A stretch of DNA of 47,714 nucleotides. Source: an uncultured Halomicronema sp. GTDB taxonomy: Bacteria; Cyanobacteriota; Cyanobacteriia; Phormidesmidales; Phormidesmidaceae. Positions within the stretch are counted from its first letter, which is position 1. Each line of letters begins with the position of its first letter. Positions 35,342 to 47,714 of this stretch are shown piece after piece. Made by a program: the position numbers and the translations under genes. The notes below the pieces were generated by a model, which saw only the letters and a program-made list of their open reading frames with translations, had not been told where the DNA came from and did no database searches. The stretch is from positions 1-47,714 of the forward strand of contig CALCCA010000124.1 of NCBI GenBank assembly GCA_937899725.1, given 5' to 3'.

Positions 35342-36157
35342 ATGTGCCGTCTTTTAGGATATTTGGGGCCAGCCCTGACGTTAGACCAGCTGATGTTGGA
35401 GCCACCGCACTCTCTAGTGGTGCAGGCCTATGCGCCCCAGGAATTAGAGGTGGCACTGCTCAATGCGGACGGCTTTGGGCTGGGATGGTATCACGCGACC
35501 CAAACCACGGCCCCGTTTACCTACCGCAACGTGTTGCCGATTTGGAATGACCCCAACTTAGAGCCGCTGTGTCGCTACATCACGACCGGCTGTGCCGTGG
35601 CCTATGTGCGCAGTGCCACCCCCGGGCAGGGCGTCGATATCAGCAATTGTCAGCCGTTTCAATCCGACTCGCTGTTGTTTACCCACAATGGCTACATCAA
35701 GCGGTTTCGCGAGACGCTTTATCGACCGATGCGACGGTTGATGAGCGATCGCGCCTACCGTACCATTCACGGCAGCACCGATTCAGAGCACATTTGGGGG
35801 CTCGTGCTCACGGCGCTCGCAGCGCAACCGGGAATGACCTTGGCCGCCGCTCTGGAAACGGCCTTAGCTCAGCTATTGGCCCTGGCCTATAACTATGATG
35901 TGCCCTGTGCTGCCAACGTGCTGCTCAGTGATGGGCAACAGCTGGTGGGGGCGCGGTTGGCCTCCCATAATCGTGCACCTTCCCTATACTGGCTAAAGGA
36001 TGACCCGCAGTTTCCTGACGCTGTTTTGATCGCCTCTGAGCCGCTGTTCGACGCTGATTGGCAACCCTGTGAAGACTCCTCGCTGTTTACGATGACCGCC
36101 GATTGTGACGTCCAGTTCTCTTCCCTCAGTCACCTCTGCCAATCTCACTCTGGCTGA
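35342..36157 (+). CDS. egtC: Ergothioneine biosynthesis amidohydrolase EgtC
   Basis: A 271-aa class II glutamine-amidotransferase fold protein. The nucleophile is C2, exposed after Met removal (MCRLLGYLG); LLNADGFGLGWY, YVRSATPG and FTHNGYI are the Ntn-hydrolase active-site blocks. EgtC removes the gamma-glutamyl group from the EgtB sulfoxide product when gamma-Glu-Cys is the sulfur donor. It is the first gene of egtC-egtB-egtD; its end overlaps the egtB start by about 53 bp. Confidence 0.92.
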   Translation: MCRLLGYLGPALTLDQLMLEPPHSLVVQAYAPQELEVALLNADGFGLGWYHATQTTAPFTYRNVLPIWNDPNLEPLCRYITTGCAVAYVRSATPGQGVDISNCQPFQSDSLLFTHNGYIKRFRETLYRPMRRLMSDRAYRTIHGSTDSEHIWGLVLTALAAQPGMTLAAALETALAQLLALAYNYDVPCAANVLLSDGQQLVGARLASHNRAPSLYWLKDDPQFPDAVLIASEPLFDADWQPCEDSSLFTMTADCDVQFSSLSHLCQSHSG

Positions 36158-37394
36158 GTTACGTCAAATTCTTCGAACCGACCTGGTGGCTTGCCGCCAG
36201 AGTACCCTTAGCCTGACCAAGCAGCTGACAACCGCCGAGTTTCGGCAACAGTCTCACCCCGACTTCAGCCCCGTCGGGTGGCACCTGGGTCACATTGCTT
36301 TTACCGAATCGCTGTGGCTGCTGGAGCATCTGAAAGAAGACGCCTGTGCCGAACCGCAGTATCAGACTCTCTTCGCGGCTGACGGTTTGCCCAAGGCCGA
36401 GCGGGAAAATCTGCCCGCTCTAGCGGACATTTTGACCTATCTGCAGACGGTGCGCGATCGCACCCTGACCTATTTAGAAACGGCACCGCTCTACGATCAG
36501 CTGCGGCTCTGGCGGTGGATTTTGCAACATGAGAGCCAACATGCCGAAACGGCCACCTACGTGCTGGCGATGCATCGCTGGCCGTCCCCTGCGGGTGAGA
36601 TTACAGCGGCGGCACCGGTGCGCCCCACCTCACTGAACCCAGCAGTGGACTCCACCAATATGGTGTTGGTTCCGGCGGGCGAAACCATCATGGGTAGCGA
36701 CACCCTGGACGCGATGGACAATGAACGAACCGCCCATGCGGTTACCACCGCCGCCTACTGGATTGATCGCACCCCGGTCACGGTGGCGGCCTATCGCCAG
36801 TTCATCTTGGCCGGGGGCTATCAAAATAGTCAGTGGTGGCAGCCTGACGGGTGGCAGTGGGTGCAGCAAAATCAGCTGCATCAGCCCCGGTATTGGCGGG
36901 ATGAGCCCGGTTTAGAGACGACGCCAGTCTGTGGCGTGAGCTGGTATGAGGCCGATGCCTATGCCTGTTTTGTGGGCAAACGATTGCCGACCGAAGCCGA
37001 ATGGGAGCGGGCCGCTCGTTGGCAGCCCAGCCAGGGAACCGCATCAATGCCCTGGGGAGAGGCCGCGATCGCGGCGTATCACGGTAACTTTGGCGGGCAA
37101 TGGGGCGGGGTCTCGCCCGTCGGCCAGTTTCCGGCGGGGCGGAGCCCGAGTGGCTGCGACGATCTGTTGGGCAACGTGTGGGAATGGACCGACAGCTGGT
37201 TTGAGCCCTATGCCGGATTTACCGCCTACCCCTATCGGGGCTATTCTCAGGCTTATTTTGATCGCACCCACCGAGTCTTGCGCGGCGGCAGCTGGGCCAC
37301 GCGACCTTGGGTGCTGCGCCCCGCCTTTCGCAATTGGTACCAACCGGAAGTGCGCCAGCTGTTTGCTGGGTTTAGATGTGTTTTACGCACATAG
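36105..37394 (+). CDS. egtB: Ergothioneine sulfoxide synthase EgtB
   Basis: A 429-aa non-haem iron enzyme that joins hercynine and a thiol with O2. The N-terminal DinB-like domain supplies iron ligands: H63 (GWHLGHIAFTE) and H142/H146 (HESQHAET). The C-terminal formylglycine-generating-enzyme-like domain includes TPVTVAAYRQF, GNVWEWTDSWF and VLRGGSWATRPW, ending in the usual FRNWY..FAGFR. The GTG at 36105 overlaps egtC by 53 bp; no ATG lies nearby, so translational coupling is likely. Function is well supported by the three-gene context. Confidence 0.93.
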   Translation: MTSSSLPSVTSANLTLAELRQILRTDLVACRQSTLSLTKQLTTAEFRQQSHPDFSPVGWHLGHIAFTESLWLLEHLKEDACAEPQYQTLFAADGLPKAERENLPALADILTYLQTVRDRTLTYLETAPLYDQLRLWRWILQHESQHAETATYVLAMHRWPSPAGEITAAAPVRPTSLNPAVDSTNMVLVPAGETIMGSDTLDAMDNERTAHAVTTAAYWIDRTPVTVAAYRQFILAGGYQNSQWWQPDGWQWVQQNQLHQPRYWRDEPGLETTPVCGVSWYEADAYACFVGKRLPTEAEWERAARWQPSQGTASMPWGEAAIAAYHGNFGGQWGGVSPVGQFPAGRSPSGCDDLLGNVWEWTDSWFEPYAGFTAYPYRGYSQAYFDRTHRVLRGGSWATRPWVLRPAFRNWYQPEVRQLFAGFRCVLRT

Positions 37395-37461
37395 GCATTC
37401 GCCACATCCGATGTCAGAATACACAGGGGTTTAGCCGACCTCTAGTAAATTTTGAGATGCC

Positions 37462-38526
37462 ATGCCAGTTCAATCCCAATTTCCGAGTTCGATGCCCGCT
37501 GCTGATGACAATCGGACTCCATCGCCTCAGTCGCCGGTGCTGTCTCGCGATCGCCTCATGATTGAGTACCGCAATGCCGACGAGACGACAGCGGCGCTGC
37601 CGACCGGCCAAGACGTGACGGTTGGACTTACCCAAACCCCCAAAACGCTGCCCCCTAAGTATTTCTACGACGATCAGGGGTCGCAGCTGTTTGAACAAAT
37701 TACAGACCTGCCGGAATATTATTTGACGCGCACCGAGCGCCAGATTTTGGAAACCTTTGCCGGGGCGATTGCTACTCAGGTGGGCAGCTGCGACCTGGTG
37801 GAATTGGGCAGCGGTAGTGCTAGCAAAACGCGGATTCTTTTTGATGCCTATCAGCGCCAGGGCCAGCCGCTACGCTATGTGCCAGTCGATGTCAGCGGCG
37901 GTATCTTAGAAGAGAGCGCCCGCGCCTTGCTGAGTGACTATGGCACACTGACCATTCACGGGCTGGTGAGCACCTATGAAGCGGCACTCTCGAACCTACC
38001 GGCCACTGACTTGCCCCGGCGTCTGATTGCCTTCATTGGCAGTACGCTAGGCAATTTGTCGCCGCAACAGGCGCAGCAATTTTTTCGGCGGGTGAGTGAG
38101 TCGCTAACTCCCGGCGACTATTTTTTGCTCGGCGTTGATTTACACAAAGACACCGCAACGCTGACCGCTGCTTACAACGATGCTCAGGGCGTCACCGCTA
38201 CCTTCAATTTGAACATGCTGAGTCACCTCAACTGGCGCTTTCAGGGTGATTTTGAGCTGTCGCAATTTCGTCATGTGGCGGTGTATAACGAGGGTGATCG
38301 CCAAATCGAGATGTATATCGAAAGCCTCGTTGACCAAACCGTGACCCTCAAGGCGCTAGGACTCACGGCATCGTTTGCTGCTGGCGAGCGCCTGCTCAGC
38401 GAGATTTCGCGTAAATTTGATCCTGAGCAATTGGCTCAAAGGCTGGCCGCTTTTGAGTTGGACGTGACGGATACCTTCACCGATGAGCACTGTCAGTTTG
38501 CGCTGTTGCTATGTCAAAAGCCGTGA
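37462..38526 (+). CDS. egtD: L-histidine N-alpha-methyltransferase EgtD
   Basis: A 354-aa SAM-dependent methyltransferase that trimethylates histidine to hercynine, the first step of ergothioneine synthesis. The family block PKYFYDDQGSQLFEQI (65-80) with LPEYYLTRTE follows a disordered 40-residue N-terminus; the SAM motif ELGSGSASKT is at 114-123 and FIGSTLGNL further on. It starts 67 bp after egtB, last in the operon. No EgtA or EgtE gene is nearby, so gamma-Glu-Cys supply and C-S lyase activity must come from elsewhere. Confidence 0.94.
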   Translation: MPVQSQFPSSMPAADDNRTPSPQSPVLSRDRLMIEYRNADETTAALPTGQDVTVGLTQTPKTLPPKYFYDDQGSQLFEQITDLPEYYLTRTERQILETFAGAIATQVGSCDLVELGSGSASKTRILFDAYQRQGQPLRYVPVDVSGGILEESARALLSDYGTLTIHGLVSTYEAALSNLPATDLPRRLIAFIGSTLGNLSPQQAQQFFRRVSESLTPGDYFLLGVDLHKDTATLTAAYNDAQGVTATFNLNMLSHLNWRFQGDFELSQFRHVAVYNEGDRQIEMYIESLVDQTVTLKALGLTASFAAGERLLSEISRKFDPEQLAQRLAAFELDVTDTFTDEHCQFALLLCQKP

Positions 38527-42458: not shown

Positions 42459-42953
42459 ATGCAGCTAGGGCGATCGCTACGATGGGCTTTGCCACTCAGT
42501 GTTTTGAGTAGTTTGGGCACAGCGGCCCTCGCTACGACGATTGAACTCAGCGTGTTACCGACTACCGCTAATGAGGGCAACTGCCCCGCCTCGCTCATTG
42601 CCCACGAAACGCCGCAGCCCTACTTTGAAGGGGGCTTTGCCCGTGATGGCATGATCAAGCTGGGGGAGGTCGCGACGAATATCCGAGTGTTGGAGTCGGA
42701 TGTATTTAGTGCTACCTGGGTTGGCACACTCAAACCCGAATATCGCAGCTGTGAGGGCTCCGCGATTATCAACAGTATTGATGCGGTGGCCTACGAAGGT
42801 CACTCCTACCTGGCAGTCCATTTCATCAATGGCCAGGCGCGCGCCACGCTGGACATGACCGGGATTCCCGATGCGAATGGCTTCACGTCTAGTCTGATAT
42901 TCAAGGGTCTGCGTCAGGGCAACCCGCGCTGGACTTGGGGCGGCACTGACTAG
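42459..42953 (+). CDS. Small exported protein of unknown function
   Basis: A 164-aa protein with a clear signal peptide (RSLRWALPLSVLSSLGTAALA, cleavage near ALA-T). The mature part of about 138 residues is beta-rich with two Cys (one in GNCPASL, one in RSCEGS) that could form a disulfide. No family recognised. It stands alone, followed by about 1 kb without genes. Confidence 0.75.
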   Translation: MQLGRSLRWALPLSVLSSLGTAALATTIELSVLPTTANEGNCPASLIAHETPQPYFEGGFARDGMIKLGEVATNIRVLESDVFSATWVGTLKPEYRSCEGSAIINSIDAVAYEGHSYLAVHFINGQARATLDMTGIPDANGFTSSLIFKGLRQGNPRWTWGGTD

Positions 42954-44000
42954 GGCCGTTCATGTTGGCGGGGGCGGTCGGTTGACTTTGTATGGGGTCT
43001 CCGATCAGCGCCGAGAATCTCTGGCATCAGCAAAGCATGGCAGAACTTGGTGCCAAGATGAGGCTGCGATCGCCCTGAATCGGCCAGGATGGCCATTAAT
43101 GCTTTTATCTCAAACTTTCAGCGCTTCAATTGTTTGGGCGATGAGGAATTCAGCCCCTTTCTTTGCCCATTCATATGGCTTTACGACTATGGGACACCGC
43201 AAAAAACGTTAATGAAATCTCACTATGCTTGAGTCTATGAGGCCGCGATTTGATCTACTTGTGGCTGATTAATAGCTGGTATTCGCGTGACATCAATTCT
43301 CTGCAAAAAGACTATAAACTGGCTGCTCCTGCTCCTGCCTTTCTGAAGTTGTCAAGATGATATCGGCAGTTCGGTTACTGAGAACTGGTATGCGATCTGA
43401 CGGGCCAATAAGACGCTAATCAAATGCACTAAAGATCGGCTGCTGACCCTGCCGAGCGAGAGATCGGCTGAGCTGCTAATCGATGTTAAGGGCACATTTT
43501 TCTCGTTAGGTCGCATCTAGAAACGCGATCGCGCCGCCACAGATAATGATGATTTACTGCTGCGGGCCTTGCTTAGCCTTGAGAGCAGTGAGCCTCAATG
43601 TTCATGATCAATTGCCTGCCCCGACGATCGCTGCCTGCCCCGACTAACGATTGAACCGCGATTCACGATGGAAGATTTTCCTGCGCGGGACTGAACTTTG
43701 TGCGGCCCATCTGAAAACCGCAATAAAAGAATCATCTTGGCCTTAAAGCTAGGTGCCAAGCCAATTTAGCGGCGATTATCCTGAATAGTCGGCAGTTAAT
43801 CGAGAATATGGCAATCTACAGCTCATTCCGAAAATCCAGGTGACCGTCTGGTTTGAGGTAAGTATAAAAGATTGGCATGGATCTAATAAAGACTTTTATG
43901 GATAGTGGCCTGGAATTATTGAAGTTGTATCTCTATTTACAGTTGTCTTCTGGAAATGAAGGATTAATGAATGCCAACAGGCATTTAGGTGAATCGAAAT
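42954..44000. other. Long intergenic region ahead of the ABC importer
   Basis: About 1 kb, more AT-rich than its surroundings, with no supported gene on either strand. It contains an exact 13-bp direct repeat (listed) and AT-rich stretches after 43800 that probably hold the importer promoter. No known riboswitch class was recognised. Confidence 0.45.
43613..43644 (+). repeat. Exact 13-bp direct repeat, possible operator
   Basis: TGCCTGCCCCGAC occurs at 43613-43625 and 43632-43644, 19 bp apart (about two helical turns), roughly 360 bp before the importer operon. Could be a regulator-binding site; unproven. Confidence 0.3.
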
Positions 44001-45515
44001 ATGCATTATTTTCTGGGTTGGTCTAAGAAAAGAATTGCGACTGGTTTTTTAGCTTCATCTCTCTTTTTTGTAGGAGCTTGTTCGACGACTGAAGTGACTT
44101 CTGAAGGGGAAGAAGTCGCTGCTTCTGGCGGATCTGGAGAGGTGATTCGCATTGCGATCGGCACCCAAGATCAGGTGATTAATACCGCAGTGGGTGGGGC
44201 TGCAGTTCGAGAATTAGAACTGTTGGAGAAGCACCTACCAACTGAAGGAAAATACGAAGGTGTCGAATACGATATTCAGTGGTCGAGCTATACATCTGGG
44301 CCGCCGATTACTAACAAAATGCTGGCTGACCAAATTGATATTGGTCTCATGGGTGACTTTCCGGCAGTCATCAATCTCATCAAGTTTCAGCAAGAAGCAG
44401 AAGACGCCGATTCGATCTTTATTGGCACCCTAGCTTACAGCCCTAACGGCGCTGGCAATGCCGTTGTGGTGCCCAAAGATAGTGACGTCACTTCGCTGGC
44501 GGATCTTGAAGGCGGGACGGTTTCCGTCCCCTTTGGCTCAGCGGCGCATGGCATGGTGCTCAAGGCTTTGAGTGATGCCGGTATTGACCCCGAAACGGAT
44601 GTCAACTTAATTAGTCAGGCGCCTGAGGTGGGGGGCGCGAGTCTGCGGACGGGCCAAATTGATGCGCATGCTGACTTTGTCCCCTTTGGGGAGTTGTTTC
44701 CCTTCCGGGGCTTTGCGAAGAAGATTTTTGACGGGGCCCAAACGGGCGTGCCGACTCTGCACGGCATCACTGTGCGATCGGACTTTGCGGAAGAGCATCC
44801 CGAAATTGTGGTGGCCTATCTGAAGGCCATGCTCGAAGCCAACACCATGTTCCAGGAAGACCCTGAGGGAATTTCTGCCCAAATCGAAGAATGGTCGGGG
44901 ATTGATAAGGAAGTGGTCTATATGTTCTTAGGGCCTTCGGGACTGCAACCCTTGGATCCGACCATTGGTGAAGTGCAGGTCAATGCCCTGAAGAACAGCA
45001 TCGCAACGCTCACCAGCTTGGGCAAAATCGAAGATCCGGTAGACCCCGCAGAAGTCGTTGATTGGATTGATGAAAGCTTCTTGCTGACCGCAATGGAAGA
45101 GATGGGGTTGAACTATGAGGATGTCATTGCCACCGCTGAGGCTTACCAAATTACGGGCGAAGATGCGCTGACCGGAGAAGCGATTGAAGATCCCAAGTTG
45201 GCGGCTCAGTTTTGGGTTCAGGGTGAAGAGACCGTGACGAACTTTGCGTCCATTCCCAACATGGTGAAGGCGCTGACCGCCCTGCAAGCGGAAGGCCAGG
45301 CGGCCGATGTCATGTTTGTGCACGATCGCAACAATGGCTGGAAGCTGTTTGCCGAAAACTCTTACTTCGTCAGCAATGGTGATGAGGTATCCGCCTTTTT
45401 GCTGGAGTCTGATGCCCAAACCTTTGCGACGGAATCCGGCGGCACCATGACTGCGTTCAAAGGGCTGCAGGATATCTATGTGCAGCAGCCGCCCGCTCTC
45501 GTCGGCGCCCTATAG
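44001..45515 (+). CDS. ABC importer substrate-binding lipoprotein with C-terminal NosL-like domain
   Basis: About 504 aa. A lipoprotein signal ends in LFFVGAC (lipobox Cys at residue 27). Residues about 45-380 are a NitT/TauT-type periplasmic binding domain (IRIAIGTQDQ, MLADQIDIGLMGDFPAVI, GSAAHGMVLKAL). The last 120 residues (about 380-500) resemble NosL: ALTGEAI followed by VMFVHDRNNGWKLFAENSYFV and SDAQTFATESGGTMTAF; the Cys metal motif of NosL is missing. Start at the ATG 44001, with AGGTGA upstream; a GTG at 43989 is possible. First gene of the importer. The substrate (sulfonate, nitrate-like, other) is not determinable. Confidence 0.85.
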   Translation: MHYFLGWSKKRIATGFLASSLFFVGACSTTEVTSEGEEVAASGGSGEVIRIAIGTQDQVINTAVGGAAVRELELLEKHLPTEGKYEGVEYDIQWSSYTSGPPITNKMLADQIDIGLMGDFPAVINLIKFQQEAEDADSIFIGTLAYSPNGAGNAVVVPKDSDVTSLADLEGGTVSVPFGSAAHGMVLKALSDAGIDPETDVNLISQAPEVGGASLRTGQIDAHADFVPFGELFPFRGFAKKIFDGAQTGVPTLHGITVRSDFAEEHPEIVVAYLKAMLEANTMFQEDPEGISAQIEEWSGIDKEVVYMFLGPSGLQPLDPTIGEVQVNALKNSIATLTSLGKIEDPVDPAEVVDWIDESFLLTAMEEMGLNYEDVIATAEAYQITGEDALTGEAIEDPKLAAQFWVQGEETVTNFASIPNMVKALTALQAEGQAADVMFVHDRNNGWKLFAENSYFVSNGDEVSAFLLESDAQTFATESGGTMTAFKGLQDIYVQQPPALVGAL

Positions 45516-45827
45516 CGGGTCGCTGGGCGATCGCGTTGCACCGGGATTGATAGTCACCTGCCCGAGCCACCGGTTCCAGCACGAAATGCTGCTCTGGGGA
45601 GGCATCTCAGGCACAGAACTGGACGATGTGATCTCGGTAAGGTGGCAGTCAACATCCCGAAGGCTGATGCTGTTGAATCCGGCCTGGTAGCCCGGCTCGC
45701 CAAGTTTGGGGCAGGCCGGGCCACCAGGTCTCTCCGACTTTGGGGGTTTAGGCCCGCCGAGCCGACAAGCAAAGGGGGCCGCTCCGCCAGCCCTCATTCC
45801 AAGATTGATGATGTTGAGAGGAATGCC
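45516..45827. other. Gap between binding-protein and permease genes
   Basis: About 310 bp, unusually long inside a transporter operon, containing a strong hairpin. An in-frame extension of the permease to 45642 runs through the hairpin and is not believed. Confidence 0.5.
45683..45728 (+). promoter_or_regulatory. Large intercistronic hairpin
   Basis: CCTGGT-A-GCCCGGC (45683-45696) pairs with GCCGGGC-C-ACCAGG (45715-45728): 13 pairs with one internal A-C mismatch, 18-base loop. Likely an mRNA stabiliser or attenuator between the binding-protein and permease genes. Confidence 0.5.
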
Positions 45828-46682
45828 ATGGCAGTGACGGTATCGAAGCCAGTATCAACCCGCTGGTTCGGTCGGATTGGGGATGTCTTAAAGACCCTTG
45901 TTTGGGGCAATCGGCCCTTTCGACGGGTGCTCGCCTTGATGATATTTTTTGGTGGGTGGCAGGTTCTCTGCGCAGTTAATTTTGACTTCTTTATCAATTT
46001 TCAGCTGATTCCGTCGCCGTGGGAGGTGCTGCTCGCCACGATTGATTTTGTCACGAGCGACCCCTGGATTCACTTTCGTTCGAGCATCCAGCGGGTATTT
46101 TTTGGCTACCTGGCGGCCTCGGTGTTAGGGGTCATTTTAGGCGTTTTAATTGGTTGGTTTGAAGCGGTGGAAGATTTGTTTCTCCCGCCCTTGGAGTTGC
46201 TTCGCCCGATTCCCGCTGTGGCCTGGATTCCCCTGGCGATTTTGATGTTTCCTAATGCTGAGAGTGGCATGGTGTACATCACCTTTATTGGGGCATTTTT
46301 CCCGATGTTAATCAGTACCATTCGCGGGGTCGAGAGTACGCTCAGCGACACCGTGCTGATTCGAGTGGGACAGTGTTTAGGGGCCAATTCCTGGCACATT
46401 TTCAAAGATATTGTGATTCCCGGTTCGATGCCGAGTATTGCGAGTGGTCTCACCATTGGCATGGGCAACGCCTGGTTTTGTTTGGTGACCGCTGAGATTT
46501 TGGCTGGGCGCTATGGCGTGGGCTATATCACCTGGGAGTCTTATGTGACCTCTAACTACCCCCCGATTGTGATGGGTATGTTGCTGATTGGTTTGATGGG
46601 GGCGCTGAGTTCATGGGCGGTGGGTCGGGCCACCAACGCGCTGATGCCTTGGCGGGTGATCAACAAGCAGGGAGGGGTTTAG
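45828..46682 (+). CDS. ABC importer permease, NitT/TauT type
   Basis: About 284 aa with five to six membrane helices and the binding-protein-dependent permease (BPD_transp_1) domain. The EAA-like cytoplasmic loop is around VGQCLGANSWHIFKDIVIPGSMPSIASGL; LLRPIPAVAWIPLAI is typical of TauC/SsuC permeases. The ATG at 45828 has GAGAGGAA just upstream. It pairs with the ATPase that starts 7 bp after its stop. Confidence 0.92.
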   Translation: MAVTVSKPVSTRWFGRIGDVLKTLVWGNRPFRRVLALMIFFGGWQVLCAVNFDFFINFQLIPSPWEVLLATIDFVTSDPWIHFRSSIQRVFFGYLAASVLGVILGVLIGWFEAVEDLFLPPLELLRPIPAVAWIPLAILMFPNAESGMVYITFIGAFFPMLISTIRGVESTLSDTVLIRVGQCLGANSWHIFKDIVIPGSMPSIASGLTIGMGNAWFCLVTAEILAGRYGVGYITWESYVTSNYPPIVMGMLLIGLMGALSSWAVGRATNALMPWRVINKQGGV

Positions 46683-46689
46683 CAAAGGT

Positions 46690-47523
46690 ATGGAAGACGT
46701 CATGGTGACGATGCAGCGAACCGCAGAACGACAGACGCTGAAAGGGGCCGTACAGGTTGAAGGGCTGTCAGTCGTTTATCGCCGCAAGAATTACGAAAAC
46801 CGCGTGCTGGATGCGATTCAGCTATCCATCCAGCCGGGTGAATTTGTCTGTTTGCTGGGGCCTTCGGGCTGTGGCAAGTCGACTCTGCTGAATGTGATTG
46901 CGGGATTTTTAAAGCCCTCGGCTGGGTACGTACTGGTGGATCAGATGCCCATTAGTCGGCCGGGGGCCGATCGCGGTTTTGTTTTTCAACAGTATTCACT
47001 GCTGCCGTGGAAGACGACGTTTCAAAACATTGAATTGGGTCTAAAAATTCGCGGGGTATCGAAGGCGGAGCGCACGGAGCGAGTTAATGAGTACCTGAAT
47101 CGGGTGGGGCTTTATAAGCACCGCAGCAGCTATCCCCATCAGCTTTCCGGCGGCATGCAGCAACGGGCGAGCATTATTCGAGCTTTGGTCAATTCGCCCT
47201 CGGTGCTGCTGATGGATGAGCCGTTTGCCGCGCTCGATGCGCAAACTCGTCACATGATGCAGGAAATGCTACTCGGCATTTGGGATGACTTGAAGACGAC
47301 GGTGATTTTCGTGACTCACGATATTGAGGAAGCGATTTTCTTGGGCGATCGCATTTGCACCATGGGCGTTCACCCCGGTCGCATCAAGTCGGAAATTCCA
47401 ATCGACTTACCGCGGCCGCGTCATTTTGATGACACCCTTTCCAAAGAGTTTCTGGCCCTGAACCGTCAGGTGTTTAATTGCATCCGCGAGGAGACGATGA
47501 AGAGCATGGAGGAAAGCTTGTAG
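46690..47523 (+). CDS. ABC importer ATPase, NitT/TauT type
   Basis: A 277-aa ATPase of the TauB/SsuB group. Walker A GPSGCGKST (57-65), Q-loop VFQQYSLLPWKT, signature LSGGMQQRASI, Walker B VLLMDEPFAALD and H-loop VTHDIEEA are all intact. No C-terminal regulatory extension of the NrtC kind. An alternative ATG lies four codons in (46702). Last gene of the importer. Confidence 0.94.
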   Translation: MEDVMVTMQRTAERQTLKGAVQVEGLSVVYRRKNYENRVLDAIQLSIQPGEFVCLLGPSGCGKSTLLNVIAGFLKPSAGYVLVDQMPISRPGADRGFVFQQYSLLPWKTTFQNIELGLKIRGVSKAERTERVNEYLNRVGLYKHRSSYPHQLSGGMQQRASIIRALVNSPSVLLMDEPFAALDAQTRHMMQEMLLGIWDDLKTTVIFVTHDIEEAIFLGDRICTMGVHPGRIKSEIPIDLPRPRHFDDTLSKEFLALNRQVFNCIREETMKSMEESL

Positions 47524-47632
47524 ACGATTGCAACGTTCATTTATCGACGATTGATTGCTGATGGCTTGGGAGCCGGGGGGCTGAGGGGCAGGGGAGCCAG
47601 TTCTGTCGCCTCGTTTCAGAGCATCGGTATAA

Positions 47633-47714
47633 TACCAGTTCTACGAATTACAGCTACACATATAGCAATCCGCGGATAGATCTGGTCAGTCAATGAAGGC
47701 TTGGTCAACGACTT
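47633..47714 (+). mobile_element. Left end of a type 1 MITE-like element (cut by window edge)
   Basis: ATACCAGTTCTACGAATTAC followed by AGCTACACATA matches the left end at 20698 with one change; the right end would lie beyond the window. Confidence 0.5.

Follow-up and report, generated by a model that had tools for sequence, protein, structure and literature searches.

NosL-type copper chaperones hold Cu(I) through the cysteine and probably also the methionine of a CXM motif, as described in PMC6530538, and the titles of PDB entries 7osf-7osj place NosL in the ABC transporter complex NosDFYL. For the sulfonate-binding protein TauA, PMC6906117 reports that the sulfonate is held by Gln30 and the main chain of Gly61, Gly79 and Thr132, and the amine by Glu106, Thr132 and Asp205. 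A further point of comparison is the assimilatory PAPS reductase of Methanothermococcus, whose alpha subunit is entry 8a8o (PMC10322725).

The gene described here joins a substrate-binding protein (SBP) of the SsuA/TauA type to a C-terminal domain related to NosL. It lies in the window, by which we mean the whole stretch of 47,714 nucleotides analysed here, from an uncultured Halomicronema sp. Neither the fusion nor its operon was found described among the papers listed from the open PMC subset searched, in agreement with the original prediction, which knew of no described function for this combination.

Gene and domain architecture

The fusion gene (44001..45515, forward strand) encodes 504 amino acids from an ATG at 44001 to a stop at 45515, as given by the ORF list together with domain and fold searches; an in-frame GTG precedes this ATG at 43989. 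Read directly in the sequence, residues 1-27 resemble a lipoprotein signal that ends in a lipobox-like VGAC (residues 24-27; 44070..44081, forward strand), making Cys27 the likely lipidated residue. The corresponding alignment column holds Cys in 25/36 homologues, every one of them cyanobacterial. The substrate-binding domain covers residues 46-375 (44136..45125, forward strand) by NMT1/SsuA-type profiles, fold and pocket mapping, and is followed by the NosL-derived domain at residues 376-504 (45126..45512, forward strand), with a folded core at about 398-491.

On the same strand, an ABC permease of 284 aa (45828..46682; ATG at 45828, open frame from 45642, with a 284-aa homologue in locus L009) and an ABC ATPase of 277 aa (46690..47523, from the ORF list and domain profiles) follow, whose best NCBIfam matches are ntrB and SaoA, respectively. 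The roughly 1 kb preceding the SBP gene (42954-43988) holds no ORF of at least 80 aa. A promoter and terminator scan of 42950-47714 was not informative, as 5 and 7 sites were found where 3.6 and 4.6 are expected by chance. A frame error or a chimeric assembly was rejected because homologous fusions occur at identities between 99% and 41%.

Elsewhere in the window (35342-38526), genes for a class-II amidotransferase, an FGE-sulfatase/DinB protein and a histidine-specific methyltransferase stand in a row. These are presumably EgtC, EgtB and EgtD, and the row is likely an ergothioneine cluster. L009 starts with the same 354-aa ORF as found in this row.

Fold and descent of the C-terminal domain

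The original prediction of a NosL-like domain, here about 115 residues, at the C-terminus was borne out, since profile search and structure prediction both return NosL. The Pfam family NosL (PF05573) matches residues 398-491 of the window protein with an E-value of 1.3e-4 and 22.7-22.8 bits (curated cut-off 24), and with 27.9 bits when the protein is searched together with its frame neighbours in the genome search. Among the aligned homologues, 34/36 match NosL at E <= 0.1, the best at 2.5e-6. Seven other fusions were scanned with Pfam: three score above the cut-off (29.2 bits for L159, a close relative, 35.1 for L123, a Cys-bearing relative, and 25.8 for L164), L161 reaches 19.6 bits, and L160, L162 and L141 gave no NosL match at E <= 0.01. 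A profile built from 36 C-domains and searched against the PDB sequences placed NosL 7og7 first (E 9e-5) and 7osf and 7znq next (E 0.014 and 0.015), ahead of a gibberellin receptor as the first match outside NosL (E 0.2).

In VIA, the full-length model returned SBP-fold proteins and no NosL because the SBP domain fills the list, and the C-domain was therefore folded alone with its alignment (mean pLDDT 80.8). For this model, Foldseek ranks 1-5 are all NosL with E-values of 1.1e-4 to 7.7e-3, representing two proteins, one from Shewanella and the other in four NosDFYL entries, and rank 6 is MerB2 (E 0.25). VIA-align 2 gave a Z-score of 11.7 against 7og7 (rmsd 2.5, 111 aligned residues) and 10.0-10.4 against the NosDFYL entries. 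Chance resemblance is ruled out by the PDB profile search, the Foldseek ranking and the VIA comparison. Taken together with the Pfam matches, these results therefore identify the C-domain, as modelled, as NosL by fold, and the sequence profiles give good support for NosL by descent. NosL and the C-domains of the fusions have D442, F466, A472 and a GG near the end in common, whereas the fusions differ in lacking the CXM motif and the second Met loop, in being joined to an SBP and in the fusion-specific residues W405 and K448.

A MerB-type lyase was considered as well; the Z-score of MerB, 7.3, lies below those of five NosL entries (10.0-11.7) but above that of the apo-NosL NMR model 2hpu (only 6.0). 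With MerB as the next fold after NosL and SaoA as the best match of the ATPase, the locus also recalls the SAO organometal system, which has a MerB-like lyase. Membership in this system was rejected because the NCBIfam cut-offs are not reached (14.6 of 300 bits for SaoX, 115.8 of 295 for SaoP and 264 of 360 for SaoA).

Absence of the copper ligands

The copper site was compared in an alignment of 52 fusions (38 of clade A including the window protein, eight of B1 and six of B2) and 12 canonical alphaproteobacterial NosL. The canonical set leaves out L155 and L156, which are incomplete NosL, and L055-L058, which were missed by the small profile; alignment A1 leaves out L028, L032 and L046, which are cut or partial. 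Of the 20 fusions from the sample of Mesorhizobium's order, 16 are among the 52 (L039 and 15 others), and those of G443, G470, G474 and G532, the last of which is cut, stand outside.

As originally predicted, the segment ALTGEAI (residues 389-395; 45165..45185, forward strand) aligns with the CXM copper motif of NosL and carries no metal Cys: T391 aligns with the Cys and E393 with the Met. The CXM Cys column holds Cys in 12/12 NosL and 8/8 B1 proteins, whereas clade A has Thr in 37/38 and Ser in 1/38, hence Cys in 0/38. In B2 it holds V or I, but the Cys strand is deleted there and the pairing at this column is therefore loose. The CXM Met and a second conserved Met in a GGMG-like loop are each present in 12/12 NosL and in 0/52 fusions, so that clade A (0/38) has neither CXM ligand. 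Among the 36 C-domains, no Cys, Met or His column is conserved at 90% or more. The motif accordingly reads CGM in NosL, CGV, CGS or CKK in B1 and TGE in the window protein. The B1 proteins have a further Cys at the N420 column (8/8); since Asp or Glu fills this column in the 12 NosL, this second Cys need not be ancestral.

Fusions with the CXM Cys and a second Cys, but without the Met, are found in B1 and similar proteins at L123-L128, L132, L157, L099, L103 and L105 and, by eye, at L162. L105, L103 and L099, where both Cys are present, are the loci of G443, G470 and G474. Also by eye, the fusion from a Gordonia plasmid reads CGR at the motif and contains a second Cys.

Since a sister clade retains the CXM Cys, it was, by parsimony, probably present at the fusion event and lost later. 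The two FastTree trees disagree on the number, one or two, and the order of losses: the SBP tree joins A with B1 (0.993) and separates all fusions from SsuA with only 0.503, whereas the C-domain tree holds all fusions together (0.931), joins A with B2 (0.955) and does not recover A as monophyletic. Judged from these columns, copper capture by the C-domain is unlikely in the window's clade, where the fusion, real and conserved, is probably copper-independent.

Substrate-binding domain and ligand pocket

The assignment to the NitT/TauT binding proteins in the original prediction agrees with the Pfam NMT1 match (PF09084, 41.6 bits, cut-off 20.5), which recurs in 36/36 homologues at E <= 0.1, and with the SsuA/TauA-type fold. 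The modelled SBP domain aligns to the SsuA, TauA, NrtA and CmpA structures with VIA Z-scores of 25.7-27.4, and the best-scoring solved chains by sequence are SsuA and TauA. The SsuA family profile TIGR01728 matches with 130.5 bits (E 7e-38), which is below its cut-off of 163.5.

Of the TauA residues named in PMC6906117, Gln30, Gly61, Gly79, Thr132, Glu106 and Asp205 correspond to Q56, G100, G118, A181, N153 and H254 of the window protein. This mapping is based on an alignment in which TauA residues were counted by hand, and its offset of 21 agrees with four of those named. Q56 is kept in 36/36 clade A fusions, and N153 and H254 stand at the Glu106 and Asp205 places in 36/36, while the glycine equivalent is kept in 33/36 for Gly61 and in only 24/36 for Gly79. 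Compared with SsuA and TauA (TIGR01728; PDB 3ksx and 6ssy), the window protein thus has the whole SBP fold (Z about 27) and the sulfonate-holding Gln, but differs in the replaced amine-holding residues, the additional C-terminal domain and the score below the SsuA family cut-off. Since Q56 is kept and N153 and H254 replace the amine holders, the sulfonate end of a TauA-type pocket is retained and the taurine amine end is not.

Distribution

The survey of the fusion and its gene context showed that it recurs beyond the cyanobacteria, together with a sulfur-related gene set. The genome scan yielded 38 fusion loci in cyanobacteria, Alphaproteobacteria and Verrucomicrobiota, and the C-domain of the fusions ranges over cyanobacteria, Verrucomicrobiota, proteobacteria and one actinobacterium. 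It is present in 5/292 genomes of the window's phylum and in 20/249 genomes of Mesorhizobium's order, there in frames of 458-632 aa apart from one that a contig end interrupts. NosL-family matches in a sample of 146 genomes comprise three fusions and four other proteins, the latter all outside the window's class; two of these four were read and both have the Cys motif.

Among 72,556 plasmid records, 44 gave matches; Rhizobium, Paraburkholderia and Acinetobacter are represented, and distant matches came from Gordonia, Tsukamurella and Nonomuraea. The C-domain was confirmed in the Gordonia protein, the one that was read, which gave no Pfam NosL match despite having this domain. On Acidithiobacillus caldus plasmids, the match reaches only residue 316-331. 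In the plasmid of A. caldus SM-1, a sulfur oxidiser, the end of a related 332-aa SBP gene overlaps an ISL3 transposase gene (L163:8932-11102), so the C-domain may have been lost by insertion.

Gene neighbourhood

The usual cyanobacterial order is the SBP-NosL fusion, the permease and the ATPase, followed on the opposite strand by a LysR-SBP gene, a flavoprotein of NF006131, a ferredoxin of 75 aa with eight Cys, a HEAT-repeat protein and Mrp. This set is uninterrupted in L074 and on a plasmid of Leptolyngbya sp. BL0902. In the window's own genome, its second half lies at the end of another contig (C44, locus L054), and in L009, whose SBP is 99% identical, the ATPase and the LysR gene share one contig. 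On plasmids of Aquabacterium, Acinetobacter and Paraburkholderia, a GntR/UTRA-type regulator, the flavoprotein, the ferredoxin, the SBP-NosL fusion, the permease, the ATPase and the HEAT protein form one run, with a DUF971 gene in 2/3 of these runs. The annotated runs of the set are one cyanobacterial, two betaproteobacterial and one on an Acinetobacter plasmid.

The LysR-SBP protein combines a LysR regulator with a second SsuA-like domain, which is 38% identical to the window SBP domain. It occurs at L054:12132-14153 (C44) and L009:10457-12478 and was noted at 19 loci. At the pocket positions mapped from TauA, it has the Gln in 20/20, the Asn in 20/20 and the His in 16/20 copies. It is probably a cytoplasmic sensor of the imported ligand.

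YeiH- and TauE-type exporter genes follow in L054, L074, L075 and on the BL0902 plasmid, with a weaker YeiH match in L076; none was seen within the fetched stretch of L077. These genes are above the Pfam cut-off, but YeiH is below that of TIGR00698. They are also present at betaproteobacterial loci.

Other neighbours are found at individual loci. Downstream of the transporter of Phormidesmis priestleyi Ana (L025:12858-15890), there are genes for a CobW-like GTPase (by eye) and for the beta and alpha subunits of nitrile hydratase. Allophanate-hydrolase-like genes occur at L054 and L129, and an ammonium transporter adjoins the Aquabacterium operon. Near the B2 loci L133, L137, L138 and L141, there are SCO1- and/or PCuAC-like copper chaperone genes; those of L137 and L138 and the L141 PCuAC were identified with Pfam, those of L133 by eye. 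Some of these loci also encode a thioredoxin resembling TlpA and a cytochrome-c-like protein. In three of the six B2 proteins (L133, L138 and L141), the SBP has a GHQSMC motif, which places a Met and a Cys beside the ligand Gln. These four loci are possibly a copper-linked branch of the family.

Flavoprotein partner and co-occurrence

The flavoprotein (L054 9919-11622) matches NF006131 with 1008.6 bits (cut-off 587). Its closest solved relative is the PAPS reductase alpha subunit 8a8o (E 8e-73), followed by dissimilatory APS reductase. It resembles the alpha subunits of APS/PAPS reductases in being homologous over the full length and in having a small eight-Cys ferredoxin encoded next door. 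It differs from them in its NF006131 membership, its HEAT and Mrp partners and a score below the APS-reductase cut-off (NF005331, 321.8 bits for the L012 homologue against 557). A ferredoxin-NADP-reductase-like protein is encoded nearby in L123, L126, L132, L133 and L140 (by Pfam in L140, by eye in the others), with a ferredoxin also near the flavoprotein in L123 and L140. These neighbours suggest that the flavoprotein step may run in the reductive direction.

In the window's phylum, the flavoprotein was detected in 12/292 genomes, comprising 5/5 with the fusion against 7/287 others (Fisher p 5e-8). In Mesorhizobium's order it was detected in 22/249 genomes, 19/20 with the fusion against 3/229 others (p 2e-24), G515 being the fusion genome without a flavoprotein match; neither p-value is corrected for relatedness. 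Hand-picked fusion genomes had the flavoprotein in 9/9 cases. Of the 37 loci with at least 380 SBP residues, 24 have the flavoprotein within the stretch that was fetched; this count leaves out L046, and several of the stretches end at contig ends.

In the cyanobacterial genomes with the flavoprotein but without the fusion (L078-L084), a tail-less SBP of 338-366 aa adjoins it in 7/7. The one of these seven scanned with NCBIfam, L079, is above the cut-off of NF008588 (SsuA; 309.5 against 299), and two further ones scanned with Pfam matched NMT1. TauD, MetX/MetY, DszC/SfnB-like and DmoA/NtaA-like genes lie near some tail-less loci (L078 and L079 were scanned). As the fusion recurs mostly with a sulfur-reductase-like enzyme, it may be one component of a not yet described system that imports and uses organic sulfur.

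Discussion

The window protein most likely serves as receptor for a sulfonate-type importer that is linked to a step resembling those of APS/PAPS reductases. In the proposed mechanism, the fusion protein would be held by a lipid anchor and act as receptor for an ABC importer whose substrate is a sulfonate-like oxyanion, but not taurine. The ligand would sit in a cleft of the SsuA/TauA type, where Q56 would still hold the sulfonate and N153 and H254 would take the places of the amine holders. The importer would feed a cytoplasmic set consisting of the AprA/PAPS-reductase-like flavoprotein, the eight-Cys ferredoxin, the HEAT-repeat protein and Mrp (or DUF971), a set that would likely act on the imported sulfur compound in an electron-driven step. 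Where present, TauE/YeiH-type exporters would likely clear surplus sulfite or sulfate. In cyanobacteria, the LysR regulator with the second copy of the binding domain would probably sense the imported ligand. The tail, derived from a NosL-type copper chaperone that lost its copper ligands, would now most likely be a docking or stabilising module, a role that we infer by analogy; docking had also been raised in the original prediction. For the combination of a non-taurine, sulfonate-like ligand, a ferredoxin-linked sulfur step and a docking or stabilising tail, our confidence is about even. This reading is weakened by the TIGR01728 score below the cut-off, the nitrogen genes near some loci and the 13/37 fetched stretches from which the flavoprotein is absent, and also by the fusion genome G515 without a flavoprotein match, the incompletely conserved Gly61 and Gly79 equivalents, the missing exporters in the L077 stretch and the flavoprotein score below the APS-reductase cut-off.

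Another reading of the tail, anticipated by the original suggestion of a second ligand, is that the emptied NosL pocket binds a small molecule via W405 and K448, together with G446, for example for the pre-capture or a check of the substrate. W405 (45213..45215, forward strand), G446 and K448 (45342..45344, forward strand) are invariant in 52/52 fusions. In the 12 canonical NosL, Trp is found at the first position in 0/12, Gly at the second in 7/12 and Lys at the third in 0/12, where 12/12 have Trp instead. The fusion-specific W405 and K448 are the candidate second-ligand site, and the C-domain is under purifying selection, with dN/dS values of 0.00-0.27 in the 8/9 pairs for which they could be computed. 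However, only nine columns are invariant among the 36 C-domains, far fewer than in the SBP domain, and the invariant residues may be structural or form a protein contact. A second site appears rather unlikely.

The ligand could also be a nitrogen compound (nitrate, urea-like or nitrile-derived) or bicarbonate, with the sulfur neighbours being incidental. NrtA and CmpA are among the fold matches, ntrB is the best match of the permease, and given the nitrile hydratase at L025 and the allophanate-hydrolase-like genes at L054 and L129, a nitrate or urea-like ligand may apply; the ammonium transporter beside the Aquabacterium operon points the same way. Several observations speak against this: SsuA and TauA are the best solved chains by sequence, TauE/YeiH-type genes occur at both cyanobacterial and betaproteobacterial loci, the partner resembles APS/PAPS reductases, and an SsuA-like SBP replaces the fusion beside the same flavoprotein. 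We consider this reading somewhat less probable than a second site.

That the tail is only a relict, tolerated but with no role in the protein, appears improbable. The ancestral site is lost, the dN/dS of the tail exceeds that of the SBP domain in 5/7 pairs with both computable, and in the A. caldus plasmid copies the match stops at about residue 331. The tail values are nevertheless low, and all 52 fusions have W405, G446 and K448. Because only full-length loci were chosen for the 36 aligned, these give no measure of the frequency of tail loss. Purifying selection and the spread across phyla indicate that the fusion is not accidental.

Metal-linked capture, which the original prediction had raised and in which the NosL domain would still bind a soft metal, copper or another one, while a metal complex would be handled or metal delivered by the importer, is the least probable reading: the two B1 cysteines, the copper chaperone genes near four B2 loci and the GHQSMC motif favour it, but the absence of the CXM ligands from clade A and of the second Met from all fusions, the deleted B2 strand and the lack of a conserved Cys, Met or His column leave it unsupported in the window's clade.

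With the sulfonate receptor as the preferred reading, a wider picture can be drawn, which we regard as tentative and hold with less than even confidence. The locus would represent an organosulfur import-and-reduction system spanning phyla, in which a sulfonate receptor acquired a NosL copper chaperone as an extra domain, and this domain then lost its copper site and came to serve in docking or sensing. The LysR-fused receptor copy would report the ligand inside the cell, and the flavoprotein-ferredoxin pair would form a third functional class beside the APS and PAPS reductases.

The fusion is a case of a metal chaperone fold that persists without its metal site, while Cys-bearing relatives survive. 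One binding domain has given rise to a matched pair, a receptor outside the cell and likely a sensor inside. For a widespread operon annotated only generically, as 'ABC transporter substrate-binding protein', 'fumarate reductase/succinate dehydrogenase flavoprotein' and 'HEAT repeat', and for its APS/PAPS-reductase-like enzyme, this provides a testable assignment.
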